A stretch of DNA of 37,344 nucleotides from the IMG/VR virus record IMGVR_UViG_3300006641_000078, positions 1 through 37,344 of that record, one strand, 5' to 3'. A program made the translations under genes and the position numbers. Below, one piece after another: positions 7,497 to 36,644 of the stretch; positions within the stretch are counted from its first letter, which is position 1; every line of letters begins with the position of its first letter. The notes under the pieces are model-generated. The model was not told where the DNA came from and did not search any database. It was given only the letters and a program-made list of their open reading frames with translations. The DNA is from a virus.

Positions 7497-7792
7497 TGGA
7501 TCCAACGGTTTTGGGCTCCATCATTGGAGTTGTAGGTTCTCTCGTTATCGGCGGCATCAGCTGGCTGGGGAAAACAAACAAAGACTCAATGACCCAGATC
7601 ACCGCCTCCGTCACCAATATCGAAGGCCAAGTCACGGCACTCCGCATCGAGCTCCCTACCAAATACGTCACGAAGGAGGAGATGCTCCGGCACATCAGCT
7701 CCGAAGAGGGCTGGCAACGCCACATCGACGCCCAACTGCGTGAAATTCGCGAAGAAATCTCCTCAGTCCGAGACTGGACACACCGCTCATGA
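7496..7792 (+). CDS. Small membrane protein with coiled coil; holin/lysis candidate
   Basis: 98 aa. One strong hydrophobic segment covers residues ~5-25 (VLGSIIGVVGSLVIGGISWL). It is followed by a polar helical part (QITASVTNIEGQVTALRIEL, REIREEISSVRDW) likely to form a coiled coil. It carries no lysine or arginine before the membrane segment and has a long soluble C-terminal tail. Single-pass proteins of this size can be holins, spanin-like lysis proteins or membrane-anchored adsorption factors, and nothing here decides between them. No endolysin is seen next to it. It is coupled at both ends (TGATG at 7496, ATGA at 7789). Confidence 0.65.
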   Translation: MDPTVLGSIIGVVGSLVIGGISWLGKTNKDSMTQITASVTNIEGQVTALRIELPTKYVTKEEMLRHISSEEGWQRHIDAQLREIREEISSVRDWTHRS

Positions 7793-8499
7793 ACCTCGAA
7801 GACTACGACTTTGACCGCCTTCTGGGCCTTGGCTACACCGAAAAGGCCACAGGCGAGCTGAAGGAAGCCTGCTGGAAAGGCTACACAGCGGTGGGCACCA
7901 AGAAGAAAGGTGGTCGCACAGTCCCCAACTGCGTGCCGATCAAGAAGTCGGACCACGCTGAGGAGATGAAGCGGAAACCGTTCATCGCTGGGCCGAGCGC
8001 AGGATCCCCTTCCTTCGCTGAAGGAGAGGATGAGACTTTGGACTTCACTCGTTGTGAGCGTCCTAATGGCACCGCTTATGGCACCGGAGGCAAGTGCCGC
8101 AAGGGAACAGAATCCAAAGCTCCCGTTGCCCCCGCTCCCCCTAAGTCGGCGATGACCAAAAAGGATCCGGTAGCCGAAGTCCTGAAATCGCAGGAAGAGC
8201 TGAAGAAGTTTAACAAAGAGGAGAATAAGCGTCTAGCGAAGGATAAGCCAGAGTTGGCCATTGAGTCGCTGGCGGTCAAGATGCGGAAACTCTCTGAGGA
8301 ATATAAGCGGCTCGCGGGTGATCCCTCTCAGGCTTCTCGGAGAAAGGAGATCATGGATAAGACGGCTGAACTCGCCAAGAAACAGCAGGAACTGATCAAT
8401 AAGAGGAACGCGTCTGTTCAGGGGCCGCAGCGGAAGGCTGATACATCACCTCTAGCCAATATGCGCAGGGCCAGTGCGGCTGCCCGAGCGGAGGATTGA
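7789..8499 (+). CDS. Protein with two phage Cys-pair motifs and coiled coil
   Basis: 236 aa. Residues 28-48 carry CWKGYTAVGTKKKGG ending in PNCVP, a short motif I recall from many phage structural proteins. Residues 89-103 carry a second pair (RCERPNGTAYGTGGKCRKG), with a preceding SFAEGE, related to segments in the 9808 and 10583 proteins. The rest is a lysine- and glutamate-rich coiled coil (residues ~120-210). In the 3' half the third codon positions look less GC-rich than in neighbours, perhaps a different origin. Start by ATGA overlap. The exact function is unknown; a virion protein is likely. Confidence 0.7.
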   Translation: MNLEDYDFDRLLGLGYTEKATGELKEACWKGYTAVGTKKKGGRTVPNCVPIKKSDHAEEMKRKPFIAGPSAGSPSFAEGEDETLDFTRCERPNGTAYGTGGKCRKGTESKAPVAPAPPKSAMTKKDPVAEVLKSQEELKKFNKEENKRLAKDKPELAIESLAVKMRKLSEEYKRLAGDPSQASRRKEIMDKTAELAKKQQELINKRNASVQGPQRKADTSPLANMRRASAAARAED

Positions 8500-8501
8500 C
8501 C

Positions 8502-8984
8502 ATGTTCGGCTCCTTCCCAAGTGAACTGCTTGAACAGTTCAAGCAAGAATACGCAGAGCGCTCAGGTAAGCCCTGTGGCGGCTCCCATATTCCGGCGGCC
8601 CACACCTGCCATGTCGGTGGTGAGAGTGGCTACAAGGACGTCACCGAAGCCATTCGTCAGGACGCAGGCGCAGCGTTCGACGACGCCCACGAGAAAATCT
8701 TCCGGGATCGTTACGCGAAGGCCAAAACGGCCAAGGAGCTCGGCACCATCCACAGGAAGGCCATCAAGGATCTCGACAACGACGATCTGGACGCCAAGGA
8801 GGGAGTGCTGAACGCCATGAAGAAGGCGATGGCATCACACCTCGAGGTGAACATGGCGACGGGCCAGGGCGCGAAACGCGCAGCTGAGCTGGCTGCGATG
8901 AGCCCTGAGGAGCGCCGTCGTGCCGAAACCAAAGACGCCATCGAACGCGGCATCAAGAACAAAGTCGTGAGCGGGAGACGCTGA
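8502..8984 (+). CDS. Small protein with shared MFGSF signature and GKPCG Cys motif
   Basis: 160 aa. I chose ATG 8502 rather than the TTG six bases upstream because it begins exactly with the signature MFGSFPSELLEQFKQEYAER, shared with the next gene. Residues 23-36 (GKPCGGSHIPAAHTC, Cys-x10-Cys) match the N-terminus of the 630-aa kinase-like protein at 11905. The remainder is helical and charged (KTAKELGTIHRKAIKDLD, AAMSPEERRRAETKD). The gene sits two bases after the previous stop and overlaps the next start (TGATG). It is probably a virion-internal or capsid-associated protein; that is inference from the shared modules. Confidence 0.75.
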   Translation: MFGSFPSELLEQFKQEYAERSGKPCGGSHIPAAHTCHVGGESGYKDVTEAIRQDAGAAFDDAHEKIFRDRYAKAKTAKELGTIHRKAIKDLDNDDLDAKEGVLNAMKKAMASHLEVNMATGQGAKRAAELAAMSPEERRRAETKDAIERGIKNKVVSGRR

Positions 8985-9807: not shown

Positions 9808-10575
9808 ATGTTAGGACATTTTTCCCCTGAAGCCCTCCGCACCTTCGCCGAGGCCCACAATTTAGACACTGGCAATCAGGACTTCTCTGAAGGAGTGTTC
9901 GATTTCAAAGTGTGTCAGAAGCCCGATGGCAAGTATTTTGGTATCAAAGATTCGGCGAAATGCACCCCACCAAACAAAGAGGCTAAGCAAAGGCCTGATA
10001 CGGGTTTCTTCAACACTCAAGCTGGTCGCGGGATAAACTATGACACCGCGAAACAGCAAGGAGATGTTAAAACCTATTGGGAGAAGATTGGTTTCAAACC
10101 TCCCTCACCCCCCACAGCCGCAGACAAGGAGGCTGAAAGGCGTAGAGCTGTACAGAGGGATAAGGAGCTGGAGGCCTTGGCCCGAGCTGAGGATCGAGCT
10201 GCGGATCCAAACGAGAGCGTACTGTATCGCGGGCGATACATGCCGCGCAAGATGAAGTGGGCCATAGAGGACACTGACGCACGCCTAGGAAAGAGAATGT
10301 CCCAGGATGATGTCAACAAGATGGTTGACAACTCTTACCGGCCAGGCCAGAATCAGCCGACTGCAGCAGTGAACCAAGCAGCTCCTAAGCCTAAATACTC
10401 TGACGCTGACTCCTACACCAAAGGCCGAGATTTGTACAGGATCTCCCGCAATGCGGGGAATAGCCACCTGATGGCTAAGAACAAGGTGCGGACTGCCTTG
10501 GAGGCAGTTGGTATGAACCCAGACGCACTTGCGCCTGAAGACTGGCAACAACTTCGCCAAATGTACGGAGACTAA
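9808..10575 (+). CDS. Protein with shared N-terminal signature and Cys pair
   Basis: 255 aa. It starts MLGHFSPEALRTFAEAHNLD, a diverged copy of the MFGSF signature. Residues ~26-52 (DFSEGVFDFKVCQKPDGKYF, then C52) repeat the F-[AS]-[ED]-G linker plus Cys-pair arrangement found in the 7789 and 10583 proteins. The rest is charged and helical, with low-complexity Pro/Ala stretches. Third codon positions look less GC-rich than in neighbouring genes, as in the adjoining HNH gene, hinting at joint acquisition or relaxed selection. It starts immediately after the HNH stop. Likely a virion protein of unknown function. Confidence 0.65.
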   Translation: MLGHFSPEALRTFAEAHNLDTGNQDFSEGVFDFKVCQKPDGKYFGIKDSAKCTPPNKEAKQRPDTGFFNTQAGRGINYDTAKQQGDVKTYWEKIGFKPPSPPTAADKEAERRRAVQRDKELEALARAEDRAADPNESVLYRGRYMPRKMKWAIEDTDARLGKRMSQDDVNKMVDNSYRPGQNQPTAAVNQAAPKPKYSDADSYTKGRDLYRISRNAGNSHLMAKNKVRTALEAVGMNPDALAPEDWQQLRQMYGD

Positions 10576-10582
10576 CCCTATC

Positions 10583-11185
10583 ATGAACCCTTTTAACCTC
10601 CCATCTGTCGACCACCTCGTTGAGGGTGTCCATTACCGTCTCGTCGACTGGTCCTTCGCTGAGGGCCACGAACGCGACCGTGGTCTCCAGACCAACATGC
10701 CATCCCGTGGCATGGTCTCCTCCTTCGCTGATGGCGAGTGTCCCGAAGGCGAGAAGATGGTGTTTGGAATGTGCAGGAAGCCCGGAGAGAAGCAGGGCGA
10801 GAAGGAGTTTGACTCCTCCAAGAAGACCAAACAGGAGGAGGAAGGCGAAGCCGAAGCCAAGAAGCAAGGCTCTGACGTCAAGAACAACAAGATGATCAAG
10901 GATGTCAAGTCGGGCAAGAAGCTCGGCTGGGCGATCAAGGACGGCAAGCCGGTCCTCGTGGAGTGGGGATCTGTCGCTGGGGAGAAAAAGGTCGGCGCCA
11001 AGAAGCCGACGGAACCACCCAAGCCTCCCGCAGGCGCATCCCGCTCTGGCGTGACTGACGCCACTCGTTCCGGTCAGCGTGCTGGCAACGACGCAGCTCG
11101 TGCCGGTCAGGTGAACACCGCGGGTCTCGCCGCCCAGGATGAGAACCGCCGCAACATCGAAGCCCAGGCGCGGTCCGCAGGGTAA
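10583..11185 (+). CDS. Lysine-rich protein with FADGE/Cys-pair motif
   Basis: 200 aa. I place the start at ATG 10583, seven bases after the previous stop; a TTG 54 bases upstream would overlap that gene. The N-terminal part (MNPFNLPSVDHLVEGVHY) is only loosely like the shared signature. SSFADGECPEGEKMVFGMC gives a Cys53-x10-Cys64 pair in the same setting as in the 7789 and 9808 proteins. The remainder is Lys/Glu- and Ala/Gly-rich and probably disordered (KKTKQEEEGEAEAKK, PTEPPKPPAG). Its TAA stop lies inside the GGGTAAAA element. Probably virion-associated. Confidence 0.65.
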   Translation: MNPFNLPSVDHLVEGVHYRLVDWSFAEGHERDRGLQTNMPSRGMVSSFADGECPEGEKMVFGMCRKPGEKQGEKEFDSSKKTKQEEEGEAEAKKQGSDVKNNKMIKDVKSGKKLGWAIKDGKPVLVEWGSVAGEKKVGAKKPTEPPKPPAGASRSGVTDATRSGQRAGNDAARAGQVNTAGLAAQDENRRNIEAQARSAG

Positions 11186-11212: not shown

Positions 11213-11905
11213 ATGCGCAAAGACTCCATTGCCGAAGGAGCCTACCAGAAGGCTCTGGAGATGTACCAGTTTAGCGAGCGTGGCTTCCACGGCTCAGGCG
11301 TTGACGCCGACGATGTACCCGTGCTCGCTCCTCAGGTGAGCAAGCTCAAGAAGGAGGACGCTCCTTGGAATCCTGAGTCGGCCTTCTACGGCAACAAGCC
11401 CCGTGGGAGTGGTCCTCCGTCATTCAACTACACGGAGGAGACCGGCACAGGCGAGTACAATGCCATGGAAGCCGAACTCGTCCGCCTCATGCAGATCCAG
11501 GACAACCTCGGCGGTCAACTCCGCCGTGCTCGCCAACTCGGGGCTTTCCAGGAGGAGCACCGCATCGTGCAGGAGCGCAACGACATCATGAAGGCGATCT
11601 CCGCTGTGGAGGCCCAGATGATGGTGCTCGACAACGGCCGCTTCCGCCGTGGCATGAACGATGGCATGATGTACGAGTCGCAGGACCGTGACGAGTTCAG
11701 CGAGTACGTCAGCGCCATCGAGGAGAACGACGAGAAGATCGCTCGCCTCGAAGCCGCCCTGCTCGAGTTCGCTGAGAAGATGAAGGGCAAGGACATCAAG
11801 AGCACCGGTGGAGACGCCGCTGCCGACCCCGGTCAGTCGTACGACACGGCTGATGACGAGGAAGACGACGAGGACATGGACGAAGAGGAACTCAGAGAAG
11901 GCTGA
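11213..11905 (+). CDS. Coiled-coil protein with acidic tail; scaffold-like
   Basis: 230 aa. The N-terminus (MRKDSIAEGAYQKALEMYQF) is a helix loosely like the shared signature. Residues ~85-195 are a long heptad-rich coiled coil (AMEAELVRLMQIQDNLGG, IAAL-type repeats around EENDEKIARLEAALLEF). The last ~25 residues are nearly all D/E. Acidic coiled-coil proteins of this size are common as scaffolds or internal head proteins, but no specific family is recognised. It is first in its block and overlaps the next start (TGATG at 11905). Confidence 0.65.
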   Translation: MRKDSIAEGAYQKALEMYQFSERGFHGSGVDADDVPVLAPQVSKLKKEDAPWNPESAFYGNKPRGSGPPSFNYTEETGTGEYNAMEAELVRLMQIQDNLGGQLRRARQLGAFQEEHRIVQERNDIMKAISAVEAQMMVLDNGRFRRGMNDGMMYESQDRDEFSEYVSAIEENDEKIARLEAALLEFAEKMKGKDIKSTGGDAAADPGQSYDTADDEEDDEDMDEEELREG

Positions 11906-13797
11906 TGGCAGGGAAGGGGAAGCCGTGCGGCGCGTCATTCATCGCCGCTGACAAACAGTGTAAAATAGGTCTCTCCGTCCAGCTCAACGCCAAGGCGCTC
12001 AAGAACGCCGACATCGGGAAGCTGCGGGAGTGGGCTGGCAAAGCCCCGTTCAAGTACCAGCGCGACAAGATCGAGGCCGAGATCGCCAAGCGTCAGGGTG
12101 ACGCTGGCATCGTCAAGATTCCCTCTGGGAAGACGAACCGTGAGCTCGCCGCAGAGAAGAAGAAGCTCGACGACGAGCAGCAGAAGCTCCAGAAGGAGCT
12201 CGACCGACTGGTCGCCATCCGCGACGCTCAGGCGAAGGGGAAACCCTCGCAGAAGATCAACGCTGGCTTCCTGAAGAAGGCCACCACGCAGAAGCTCGAG
12301 GAGTACATGCTTCGGGCTCCGTACCAGTACCAGCGTGAAGCCATCAAGGCCGAGCTGGATCGACGAGGTGCCGGAGGGGGCGGGGCCAAGCCAGGGGTTA
12401 AAGCGACCGCTGACCTGAAGAAGGAGTGGCAGGCGATCCAAGATGATAAGATGAAGAGGATCGACCGGGGAGAGTACGAAGCGGCCGTAAAGCTGGCTGG
12501 GCAGCAGAGAGCTATCAAGGCCGAACTCGATAGGAGAGAAGCAGGCGGTTCCGCTAGAGAGGTCAAGATCGACAAGATCCTTCAGCTCGCGCCTCCCCCT
12601 CCGAAAAAGGAACCCGGCGTCAACCGCCCGTTTGCCAGTCAGAACGACGACCAGCTCAAGGGCAAGATGGAAGCCGCGTGGGCTCTCGGAAAGGATGCCG
12701 ATTACAGGGCCATGCGCGCTGAGTACCAGCGTCGCATCGCAAATGACGAGACGAAGAAGCGGATCCTGGGCATCGACGAGGACATCCGCCGCGCCAAAGA
12801 GGCGAGGCAGCAGTATGTCAAGGCGGGCAACGCCGACCGTGTGAAGAAGGTCGACGACATGATCAAGGGCCTGGAGGCTGACAAACTCCGCGTGGGCAAC
12901 TCGGCCGTCCCCCAGGGCATGGGCAAGTACGAGAAGGATCGCCTCCAAGCAATTGACAAGCGCGTCGAAGACAACATGACCAAGAAGCTTGGTGACGGCT
13001 ACGATTGGCGTGACTCCGTCAGCAATGCCGACTCCAAGGTGCTGGGTGCGGGCGCCTACGGAACCGCCGTGCGTGACTCCGCCAGGAACGTGGTCAAGCG
13101 TGGCGCCATCGGTGAGAACGAGGGTGACATCCTCAAACGCGTCGGTGAGCTGGACCTCGGTCCGAAGCTCATCGCTGCCGAACTCAACGGTCGTGGTCCG
13201 ATGGCCGGAACAAAAGACGGCCGCGTGGCCATGACGCTCGTCCCAGGAAGCCCCATCGGAAACAAGAAGGGTCTCGAGCAGTCCTACTGGCAGGCTCGTG
13301 CCGCCCTCCACCGTGCGGGCATCGCCCACAACGACATGCACATCGAGAATGTGATGGTCGACAAGCAGAGGAAGGGTCGCTTTGTGGACATGGGCCTCGC
13401 CCAGGACAACCCTAAGGCCGCTCTCGCTGAGGCCATGGGCATGTTCGACCGGATGCCAGCCGGAGCCGTGAGAAACGGTGGCGAGGGTGACTGGCAGGTG
13501 AAGCGGTGGAAGAACATCGGTGGTCGTGCTATTCGTACTTTTGAGTATGGGAAGAATGCCAACGACCTCGAAAGGCTCCAGGCTGAGAGGGACTTTCCGA
13601 CCGTGGCGAGGGTTGTCCAGAACAAGGAAGCTGCTATAACGAAGTTGAAGAGCTATGGCCTGGATGACCAGGACGTGGCCAACATCATGACCCACGGCAT
13701 TCGCAAGAGTGAAGCCTCTTTCGAGAGGGGGTCGATGGCAAAGCTTACAAACGAACAGGCGCTCAGCGTCATCAACACCCTCTACGAAGGCATCTGA
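11905..13797 (+). CDS. Helical-repeat protein with protein-kinase-like domain
   Basis: 630 aa. Residues 5-19 hold the GKPCG...C motif (Cys8-x10-Cys19) shared with the 8502 protein. Residues ~25-340 contain diverged helical repeats: KLREWAGKAPFKYQRDKIEA and KLEEYMLRAPYQYQREAIKA are two clear copies. Residues ~378-500 look like a kinase fold: Gly-rich loop GAGAYGTA (381-388), VVK with Lys398, Glu404/406, hinge-like MTLVPG (443-448), catalytic loop HNDMHIENVMVD (475-486; Asp477, Asn482) and FVDMGLA (Asp495 in the DFG position). All core residues of RIO/LPS-kinase-like enzymes appear present. A C-terminal ~100 residues are uncharacterised. It may be packaged in the virion and act on host or virion proteins; this is inferred. 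Confidence 0.8.
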   Translation: MAGKGKPCGASFIAADKQCKIGLSVQLNAKALKNADIGKLREWAGKAPFKYQRDKIEAEIAKRQGDAGIVKIPSGKTNRELAAEKKKLDDEQQKLQKELDRLVAIRDAQAKGKPSQKINAGFLKKATTQKLEEYMLRAPYQYQREAIKAELDRRGAGGGGAKPGVKATADLKKEWQAIQDDKMKRIDRGEYEAAVKLAGQQRAIKAELDRREAGGSAREVKIDKILQLAPPPPKKEPGVNRPFASQNDDQLKGKMEAAWALGKDADYRAMRAEYQRRIANDETKKRILGIDEDIRRAKEARQQYVKAGNADRVKKVDDMIKGLEADKLRVGNSAVPQGMGKYEKDRLQAIDKRVEDNMTKKLGDGYDWRDSVSNADSKVLGAGAYGTAVRDSARNVVKRGAIGENEGDILKRVGELDLGPKLIAAELNGRGPMAGTKDGRVAMTLVPGSPIGNKKGLEQSYWQARAALHRAGIAHNDMHIENVMVDKQRKGRFVDMGLAQDNPKAALAEAMGMFDRMPAGAVRNGGEGDWQVKRWKNIGGRAIRTFEYGKNANDLERLQAERDFPTVARVVQNKEAAITKLKSYGLDDQDVANIMTHGIRKSEASFERGSMAKLTNEQALSVINTLYEGI

Positions 13798-13961
13798 TGG
13801 AAACCGAAGACGACAAGAAGTACATCGCCCTGATGGACAAGTACAAGAGGGCGCGCATGAAGGACGGCCAGGCGGCCATGAAGTACCTCGAAGCAGCGAT
13901 GGCTCTGAGGGAGATGGGCAAAGTCAGCGAGGATGCTGTCCTCGGTGGAGCCTACATGTGA
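13797..13961 (+). CDS. Small helical protein (54 aa)
   Basis: METEDDKKYIALMDKYKRAR, then a helical MKYLEAAMALREMG and the end DAVLGGAYM. The start overlaps the kinase-like gene's stop (TGATG) and the stop overlaps the next gene's GTG (GTGA), so it is embedded in a translationally coupled chain. No domain is recognised. It may be a small capsid or tail accessory protein. Support comes from coupling and codon use. Confidence 0.6.
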   Translation: METEDDKKYIALMDKYKRARMKDGQAAMKYLEAAMALREMGKVSEDAVLGGAYM

Positions 13962-35514: not shown

Positions 35515-36094
35515 TCCCTACATCAAGGAGATACCCAACGCTCTAAGTGAGGAGTTCTGTGAGGGCCTCATCAAGAAATTCGAAGAAGATGATAGAAAGC
35601 ATCCAGGGTTAACGTTCAGCGGCGTGACCGGGATGAAAGTGTCCATGGACCTCTTCATCAGCGACATCGAAGACTATGCCGAAGAGGATGGCACGTTGTA
35701 CCGGTCCCTCTCAGAGCACACAGATGGATACGTCGCTGGCCTGCCCAACGGTCTGGGTCCGGAGATGCTTAACGTTCAGGACACGGGCTACAATATCCAG
35801 AGGACACGGGTCGGTGAGGGTTACGTGTGGCACGACGACTCTCACGTGACATCCGACGGAGACTCCCGCATTATCACGTTCATCTGGTACCTCAATGACG
35901 TTCACGAAGGGGGCGAGACTGAGTTCTCTTGCGGGGTGAGGGTAAAGCCCGAGACCGGGAAACTGCTCCTCTTCCCCGCAACGTGGAGCTACAAACACCG
36001 AGGTTGCAGACCGATCTCAAACGATAAGTACATCGTCACCGGCTGGTTCTACACCCAGAAGCTCATCACCACTCATGACACGGTCCTTCGCTGA
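35501..36094 (+). CDS. 2OG-Fe(II) oxygenase (prolyl-4-hydroxylase-like)
   Basis: 197 aa from the GTG at 35501, which gives a typical start (SLSDPYIKEIPNALSEEFCE) and a 14-base overlap. The in-frame ATG at 35366 would add 45 residues read out of frame from the previous gene and is less likely. The ligand set is complete: H111-x-D113 (YVWHDDSHVT), GGETEF at 137-142, distal H166 (SYKHRG) and K176 (KYIVTGW) in the 2-oxoglutarate-binding position. This arrangement is that of P4H-like 2OG oxygenases (PF13640 type) common in cyanophages. The substrate is unknown; collagen-like fibre protein is one candidate. Confidence 0.85.
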   Translation: MSLSDPYIKEIPNALSEEFCEGLIKKFEEDDRKHPGLTFSGVTGMKVSMDLFISDIEDYAEEDGTLYRSLSEHTDGYVAGLPNGLGPEMLNVQDTGYNIQRTRVGEGYVWHDDSHVTSDGDSRIITFIWYLNDVHEGGETEFSCGVRVKPETGKLLLFPATWSYKHRGCRPISNDKYIVTGWFYTQKLITTHDTVLR

Positions 36095-36644
36095 TCTCAA
36101 GAGGGACTACCTCTTTCCAATCTTCATCTACTCCACCCGTCTCTCTGTGGACTTGGAGGATGTTCGACGAGACTGTTTGGAATACCGACGGAACTGTCCT
36201 GGAGTACAGAAGAGCAATCTGGGCGGGTGGCAGAGTCCGACTCTTGAGGAGCCTCTGGAGGAGTACTCAGCTCTCCGAGATGTGATCGACGGGTGTCGCC
36301 AGTTCTACGAGGATGTCATCGTCCCAGAAGAAAATCTCGCCACTCGCCACTCGTCGATTGCGTGGTGGGCAAACATCAACAAGTACAACTCGTCTAACGC
36401 CATCCACAGTCACGGCGGATCCCTCGTGACCGCAGTCTACTACACGGACCTCCCGGACCCTAACGCTGTCCTCACCCTCGTGCGGACTGATGCGCACAAC
36501 GCCATCTACCCTCCGCAGCAGCTCGTCCATCAGGTGGTCCCCGAGGAGGGGCGGCTCTACCTCTTTCCGGGGCACATCCTCCACTCGGTGGAGCCCAACC
36601 TCTCTGAGAGGGATCGCATTAGTGTTGTCACCAATCTCTACTAG
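36075..36644 (+). CDS. 2OG-Fe(II) oxygenase, putative (2OG-FeII_Oxy_5 type)
   Basis: 189 aa. The pattern NAIHSHGGSLVTAVYYTDLP, then EEGRLYLFPGHILHSVEPN and RISVVTN fits the PF13759-type oxygenases frequent in cyanophages. The proximal ligands are H111 and H113 (HSH, not HxD), with distal H170 and Arg181 as the 2-oxoglutarate anchor. It starts by a 20-base overlap with the second oxygenase. Its TAG stop and the stop of the opposite-strand gene share the palindrome CTAG. Substrate unknown. This is the last plus-strand gene in the window. Confidence 0.83.
   Translation: MTRSFADLKRDYLFPIFIYSTRLSVDLEDVRRDCLEYRRNCPGVQKSNLGGWQSPTLEEPLEEYSALRDVIDGCRQFYEDVIVPEENLATRHSSIAWWANINKYNSSNAIHSHGGSLVTAVYYTDLPDPNAVLTLVRTDAHNAIYPPQQLVHQVVPEEGRLYLFPGHILHSVEPNLSERDRISVVTNLY

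Follow-up and report, generated by a model that had tools for sequence, protein, structure and literature searches.

Kinases carried in phage particles are already known, since published mass spectrometry reports kinases in the virions of the cyanophages S-CBWM1 and S-CREM2. For S-CBWM1, APH, ChoK and Rio2 kinases are reported together with an NMN adenylyltransferase (NMNAT) (PMC10665884, citing earlier work), and the presence of NMNAT in these virions is stated in a second paper too (PMC9602691). For S-CREM2, ORF14 is represented by 21 unique peptides in CsCl-purified virions, and its neighbors ORF12, ORF15 and, by a single peptide, ORF13 were likewise detected (PMC10665884). Liu et al. caution that virion preparations may also contain non-structural proteins that co-purify because they are abundant (PMC10665884). 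In phage T4, the capsid targeting signal is a leader of about 10-20 residues that is removed by gp21 (PMC9958956, PMC7411985). The prohead protease of phage SPN3US cleaves after AXE, and phage prohead proteases cut after x-x-E motifs (PMC7411985). The kinases of polyvalent proteins have lost the C-terminal subdomain, and an insert separates their catalytic His from the Asp (Iyer et al. 2017, PMC5512222).

The window analyzed here is the whole of a 37,344-base IMG/VR virus record with a G+C content of 57% and no tRNAs. Gene order around its terminase follows that of the isolated cyanophage S-CBWM1 from gp101 to gp117, with ORFs 1197 (36% identity, gp101), 2710, the terminase 2982 (54%) and PhoH 4754 (53%) followed by 5581, 6367, 6789, the kinase gene P0001, and the fibre-like ORFs 14152 (33%) and 18726. 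P0001 occupies the slot of gp113, annotated as a RIO-like kinase. Because the best S-CBWM1 sequence match of P0001 is gp162, gp113 is its counterpart by position, orthology aside. That a cyanophage-like genome has a kinase among its late genes is the ordinary part of the finding. No DNA near-identical to the window was found among phage records, no member of the kinase family was found in 84,980 bacterial and archaeal genomes, and the kinase had zero matches in a plasmid collection. We favor, with some reserve, the interpretation that P0001 is an effector kinase, packaged as cargo in the phage head, ejected with the DNA and acting early on the host. Features of the locus are given in Table 1. 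An ORF on the minus strand (11935-13695) most likely just mirrors the kinase gene in antisense. Elsewhere in the window, ORF 36075-36644 is 2OG-Fe(II) oxygenase-like (Pfam 5.5e-14) and adjoins tail-fibre-like genes, and ORF 34780 matches DUF6445.

Table 1. Positions of the kinase gene, its motifs and its neighbors in the window
Feature	Position	Strand	Description	Basis or remark
Neighboring gene	7789..8499	+	CWKGY..VPNCV motif; SFAEG site; type A tag (at 8053)	
Neighboring gene	8496..8984	+	Leader MFGSFP..; two-Cys B tag like that of P0001 (at 8574)	
Neighboring gene	9808..10575	+	Leader MLGHFSPEAL..; DFSEG site; divergent type A tag (at 9913)	
Neighboring gene	10529..11185	+	SFAEG site; CPEGEKM..GMC motif (at 10736)	
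Upstream coupled gene	11213..11905	+	230 aa; F[SA]E site YQFSE near N-terminus	
Tagged kinase gene P0001	11905..13797	+	630 aa, ATG to TGA; ATG overlaps final base of upstream stop (11905), stop overlaps downstream ATG	ORF list and translation
N-terminal Cys tag	11917..11970	+	Residues 5-22; two-Cys B form GKPCGASFIAADKQCKIG	Same form in ORF 8496, L003, L012
Helical repeat 1	11983..12093	+	Residues 27-63	Sequence; helices in low-confidence model
Helical repeat 2	12256..12366	+	Residues 118-154	Sequence; helices in low-confidence model
Kinase domain as modelled	12910..13794	+	Residues 336-630	AlphaFold pLDDT 92.2, pTM 0.90; structural matches
Gly-rich loop	13045..13062	+	GAGAYG, residues 381-386	Sequence, family alignment
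ATP-anchoring lysine	13096..13098	+	Lys398 of VVK (396-398)	Invariant, 22/22
Catalytic loop	13327..13350	+	HNDMHIEN, residues 475-482	Asp477, Asn482 invariant
DMG (DFG equivalent)	13387..13395	+	Residues 495-497, within FVDMG 493-497	Alignment, model
Conserved small partner gene	13797..13961	+	54 aa	Start overlaps kinase stop (TGATG)

A preliminary description of this DNA had proposed a kinase-like domain with GAGAYG, VVK, HNDMHIEN and FVDMG in order at residues ~381-497, and all four motifs are found there; Gly loop, beta-3 Lys, helix-C Glu, HxD Asp with its Asn, and DxG Asp are all in P0001, and each is invariant or nearly so in the 22 members of its family. A single-sequence Pfam search returned Pkinase (1.7e-4) and APH (3.2e-3), both under the gathering score, as might be seen for a pseudokinase or a decaying passenger domain without catalysis. 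We regard that explanation as highly improbable. A family search recovered kinase relatives encoded by 22 viral loci, and in their alignment Lys398, Glu406, Asp477, Asn482, Asp495 and Gly497 are invariant (22/22), such that none of these diverse homologues has lost the catalytic Asp, Asn or Lys, a loss that the preliminary description had set against its own claim. Furthermore, dN/dS is 0.07-0.28 in seven close kinase-domain pairs, and therefore the kinase domains of close relatives are under purifying selection. Searched against solved proteins, the 22-member family profile finds kinases at ~3e-8 (GCN2, MELK, CaMK1D and WbdD). The structure prediction and comparison that had been proposed gave a confident model of a kinase fold, and all structural matches among those listed are kinases, the best with Z 9.6 and an rmsd of 4.4 over 195 residues; YabT and the RIO-like TkArkI are tied at Z 9.6 and 9.5. 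Given the family profile, the invariant residues, and the model with its structural matches, the kinase observation is well beyond chance, and P0001 almost certainly has a kinase fold with an intact predicted active site.

The type of kinase, given as RIO/LPS-kinase-like in the preliminary description, is less sharply drawn. P0001 does not match the RIO1 Pfam profile up to E = 1, a result that is compatible with membership of the family, and relatives L023 and L031 do match a RIO profile. The metal loop of RIO-type kinases is ID.PQ; this is absent in P0001, in which the sequence is FVDMGLAQ. Likewise, the Pfam Kdo profile is unmatched by P0001 and weakly matched by relatives L030 and L031, again a result compatible with membership. 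In the model, a helix begins ~8 residues past DMG, too soon to accommodate an ordinary activation segment. The lack of such a segment, the APH match of P0001, the APH-, ChoK- and RIO-like annotations in relatives and the place of TkArkI among the top structural matches would all suit an enzyme that shares the kinase fold but acts on a small molecule or RNA (similar to APH/ChoK or to the tRNA kinase ArkI) and is not a protein kinase. We consider this rather unlikely, as the solved proteins matched by the family profile are mostly protein kinases, a point that leaves the substrate unsettled. Such an enzyme could still be virion cargo, and to that extent this explanation overlaps with that of a packaged effector kinase.

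The N-terminal half of P0001 is mostly helical in a full-length AlphaFold model of low confidence (pLDDT 54). The helical repeats noted in the preliminary description are confirmed, the two segments matching at ~45% by eye, and so is the Cys motif said to be common to P0001 and a neighbor, as the P0001 N-terminus (GKPCGASFIAADKQC) recurs in ORF 8496 (GKPCGGSHIPAAHTC). Homologues of the kinase carry this Cys tag in further forms: a two-Cys type A (C.RPDGTAYGTGGKCRKG) in L001, L002, L004 and L017-L019, and a four-Cys type B (C.KGKSCGAACI....C) in L014-L016 and L021-L023. Of the distinct type B motifs, 66 have both the first and the third Cys, 12 have neither and one has just one of the two, a trend and not a test given that the four-Cys motifs come mostly from a scan requiring the first Cys and that the rows are related. 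Two disulphides would be in keeping with such pairing. Searching with the two tag alignments identified 156 viral ORFs, typically with the tag 20-60 residues from the ORF start, the remainders of which fall into 33 payload clusters at the threshold used. Pfam assigned 16 Pkinase, four ADP-ribosyltransferase exoenzyme, two HNH and one zeta toxin domain among 86 tagged representatives; L046, for example, has an ADP-ribosyltransferase (1e-13) behind a type A tag, and a cytidylyltransferase-like domain is tagged in L018 and in the NMNAT gp39 of S-CBWM1. Several different kinases can occur in one phage, as in S-CBWM1 and L021. At the level of motifs and predicted domains, the scans show a portable tag on unrelated payloads. 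A limited literature search, with the key virion proteome papers outside its scope, found no description of the tag.

Several individual ORFs are worth recording. Additional type A tagged ORFs are found at L018:11748-12872 and L019:8400-9137, one with an APH-like match and one with only a weak kinase-like match (DAGK, 0.02). The 1460 aa ORF at L023:4897-9276 has three tandem kinase domains after one four-Cys tag, and the 1722 aa ORF at L031:1069-6234, in which DUF5872 and several Cys tags accompany two kinase domains, resembles joined tag-payload units. A tagged ORF in L001/L004 was read by eye as a GNAT; this was dropped when Pfam gave no support. When the type A form was scanned across the 84,980 bacterial and archaeal genomes, a single match was obtained (L191:307-387), located on a 16-kb contig of a Gemmobacter MAG that may be a phage contig binned with it. 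In the window, the CWKGYTAVGTKKKGGRTVPNCVP motif of ORF 7789-8499 (at 7870) is matched by five PHROG families at different profile places and is perhaps another shared module.

The 139 kb genome of S-CBWM1 permits a comparison of the tag with virion content. Seven of its ORFs carry the tag: gp39 NMNAT, gp106, gp113, gp161, gp162, gp165 and gp174. All four enzymes reported from its virions, which we equate with gp39, gp113, gp161 and gp162 by their annotated names, are among these seven; a fourth kinase, gp173, lacks the tag and is not named in that report (PMC10665884). The chance that four random ORFs of the 178 genes would all be tagged is ~1e-6, assuming that the published list is complete and unbiased. 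For gp113 and gp161, the tags are hidden by annotation because the deposited starts lie downstream of them: an in-frame Cys tag is found upstream of each (70404-70464 and 117860-117887 of L007, MG450654.1), and both genes very probably start earlier than deposited. In S-CREM2, ORF14 is homologous to P0001 (tblastn, E 8e-11 over residues 380-630). Its neighbor ORF12 (L008:9307-11916), published as a virion CRISPR-Cas9 nuclease, matches no Pfam domain, and that label looks doubtful.

It is conceivable that P0001 is a late protein that stays outside the virion, that detection of its relatives reflects carry-over, and that the tag is an ordinary metal-binding or stabilizing motif. The co-purification caveat of Liu et al. 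applies here, the S-CREM2 partner was detected by one peptide only, and the four-Cys B form would suit a metal site too. We nevertheless think this improbable, given that the tagged set includes gp174, annotated as a virion structural protein in S-CBWM1, that in some relatives the kinase is fused directly to a MuF domain, and that the four enzymes reported from S-CBWM1 virions are all found among only seven tagged ORFs. The virion mass spectrometry of S-CREM2 and S-CBWM1, the tag on the S-CBWM1 enzymes and the MuF fusions lend indirect support to the earlier suggestion that P0001 is a virion protein, and by analogy with the relatives detected by published mass spectrometry it is probably in the particle. 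More broadly, the published particle analyses of relatives suggest that tagged enzymes travel within the virion and enter the host cell from it.

Among type A proteins, many open with M.G.FS.EAL..F..L and show F[SA]E, or a near match to it, directly before the tag. Such a site lies no more than 15 residues before the tag in 33 of 51 type A proteins, versus 4.1 in shuffles. In the window, F[SA]E is found within the first 110 residues of six of the 13 ORFs between 5984 and 13797, but in none of the 25 others. In both counts the motif had been noticed beforehand, and the p-value is therefore only indicative. Since phage prohead proteases cut after x-x-E motifs, F[SA]E could be a processing site, and we put it forward as a candidate prohead-protease site on the basis of its sequence. 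P0001 itself starts MAGKGKPCGASF, with no leader and no F[SA]E site, and its lack of the leader counts against the head-cargo interpretation.

The kinase also occurs with other head-linking parts. In L024, L028 and L030, it is C-terminal to a Phage_Mu_F head domain (Pfam 1e-12 to 1e-15), and the layout of L025, L026, L027 and L029 appears alike by eye. The kinases of S-CREM2 and S-CRM01 have no Cys tag and instead carry an F..F..E leader, as do neighboring virion ORFs. In S-CREM2, this leader is found on virion ORFs 6, 12, 14 and 15 and on none of 21 others in the stretch, the pattern having been picked after the sequences were seen; in ORF 17, F..F..E is far from the start and probably there by chance. 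The kinase domains of L002 and L003 are 76% identical, yet one protein has an A tag and the other a B tag, a direct sign, as judged from sequence, of tag exchange. A single clade of the two-Cys B form on the kinase tree was rejected (AU p 5e-6), which shows a change of tag form, since both B forms are variations on a single motif; a single clade of form A was not rejected (p 0.09). Across all these cases, the kinase is retained and the module linking it to the head varies.

These same fusions are relevant to a different role in the virion, in which the kinase would act inside the phage life cycle, phosphorylating head or tail proteins at assembly and becoming trapped with no action on the host. 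The MuF fusions put the kinase at the portal, and P0001 is encoded in the midst of structural and late genes, coupled to the genes on either side. However, ADP-ribosyltransferase, zeta-toxin and NMNAT payloads under the same tag fit host-directed effectors better, and an assembly function sits poorly with several different kinases per phage; we judge an assembly kinase to be unlikely. For the effector interpretation, that P0001 is ejected and acts on the host has a little better than an even chance.

Directly after P0001 lies a small conserved partner gene. Its profile finds the immediate next gene in S-CRM01, S-N03 and S-CREM2 (1e-12 to 1e-14) and the next ORF in L023 and L024, as well as a convergent homologue directly after the kinase stop in L026, L028, L029 and L030, and weakly matches gp114 beside gp113 in S-CBWM1 (0.0025). 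The nearest precedent is that of the immunity genes of MuF toxins (PMC5576092), and our guess is that the partner is a silencer, chaperone or co-cargo.

The effector interpretation can be set out as a series of steps. The kinase would be made together with the structural genes, its N-terminal Cys tag would recruit it into the prohead, and the helical repeats may form a linker or docking region, with the 54-aa partner serving as chaperone, silencer or co-cargo. The kinase would then exit the head along with the DNA and phosphorylate a host molecule at the start of infection. That the tag is a packaging signal, that the kinase is ejected and that its substrate is a protein we infer only. The chances are evenly balanced that the Cys tag directs packaging into the head by a signal other than the T4 capsid targeting sequence, and that in S-CBWM1-like phages it is the mark of a modular system for delivering effectors, with exchangeable kinase, ADP-ribosyltransferase, zeta toxin, NMNAT and nuclease payloads, several per genome and partly behind a leader cut at F[SA]E by the prohead protease. 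The tag could also have a different function, for example in binding a metal or a partner. Head-borne enzymes act ahead of any phage gene expression, and there are few sequence-based ways to recognize them. If the tag is a packaging signal, it allows the injected effectors in a large group of aquatic phages to be catalogued from sequence, the majority of these effectors having no known function, and offers a route for loading foreign proteins into these phage heads. If true, it would also explain why unrelated enzymes co-occur in cyanophage virion proteomes. The tag makes the question of cargo versus contaminant directly testable for the cyanophage virion kinases.

P0001 can be compared with several described systems. 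OspG-type minimal effector kinases have a counterpart in relative L023, which matches Pfam OspG_kinase at 6.7e-12; like them, P0001 has no ordinary activation segment in its model, but unlike them, it has no OspG_kinase Pfam match, and its host is bacterial. Polyvalent-protein kinases, like those described here, reside in large, probably packaged phage proteins, with L031 joining two kinase domains and Cys tags, whereas in P0001 the HND is contiguous and about 130 modelled residues follow DMG. MuF (SPP1 gp7/Mu F) proteins with C-terminal effectors share their layout with kinase relatives L024, L028 and L030, known here from viral contigs, and the partner directly downstream of the kinase recalls the toxin-immunity layout of MuF toxins (PMC5576092); unlike these, P0001 has no Phage_Mu_F domain by Pfam. 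With T4 Alt and the internal proteins, in which an N-terminal signal addresses the enzyme to the prohead, the tagged proteins have the idea in common. The parallel to Alt drawn in the preliminary description is strengthened, as the same tag heads ADP-ribosyltransferase domains, and many type A proteins have a leader with F[SA]E. In contrast to the T4 internal proteins, P0001 lacks a leader, and nothing in the T4 signal corresponds to the Cys tag. The cyanophage virion kinases (S-CREM2 ORF14, S-CRM01 g130 and S-CBWM1 gp113, gp161 and gp162) have a kinase domain homologous to that of P0001 by tblastn, and P0001 shares with them the gp113 gene slot and a small partner gene alongside. Identity to them is only 26-33%, and the T4-like F..F..E leader of the S-CREM2 and S-CRM01 kinases contrasts with the two-Cys tag and helical repeats of P0001. 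What is new beyond these known virion kinases is the combination of one tag with many payloads and the exchange of the parts that link the kinase to the head.
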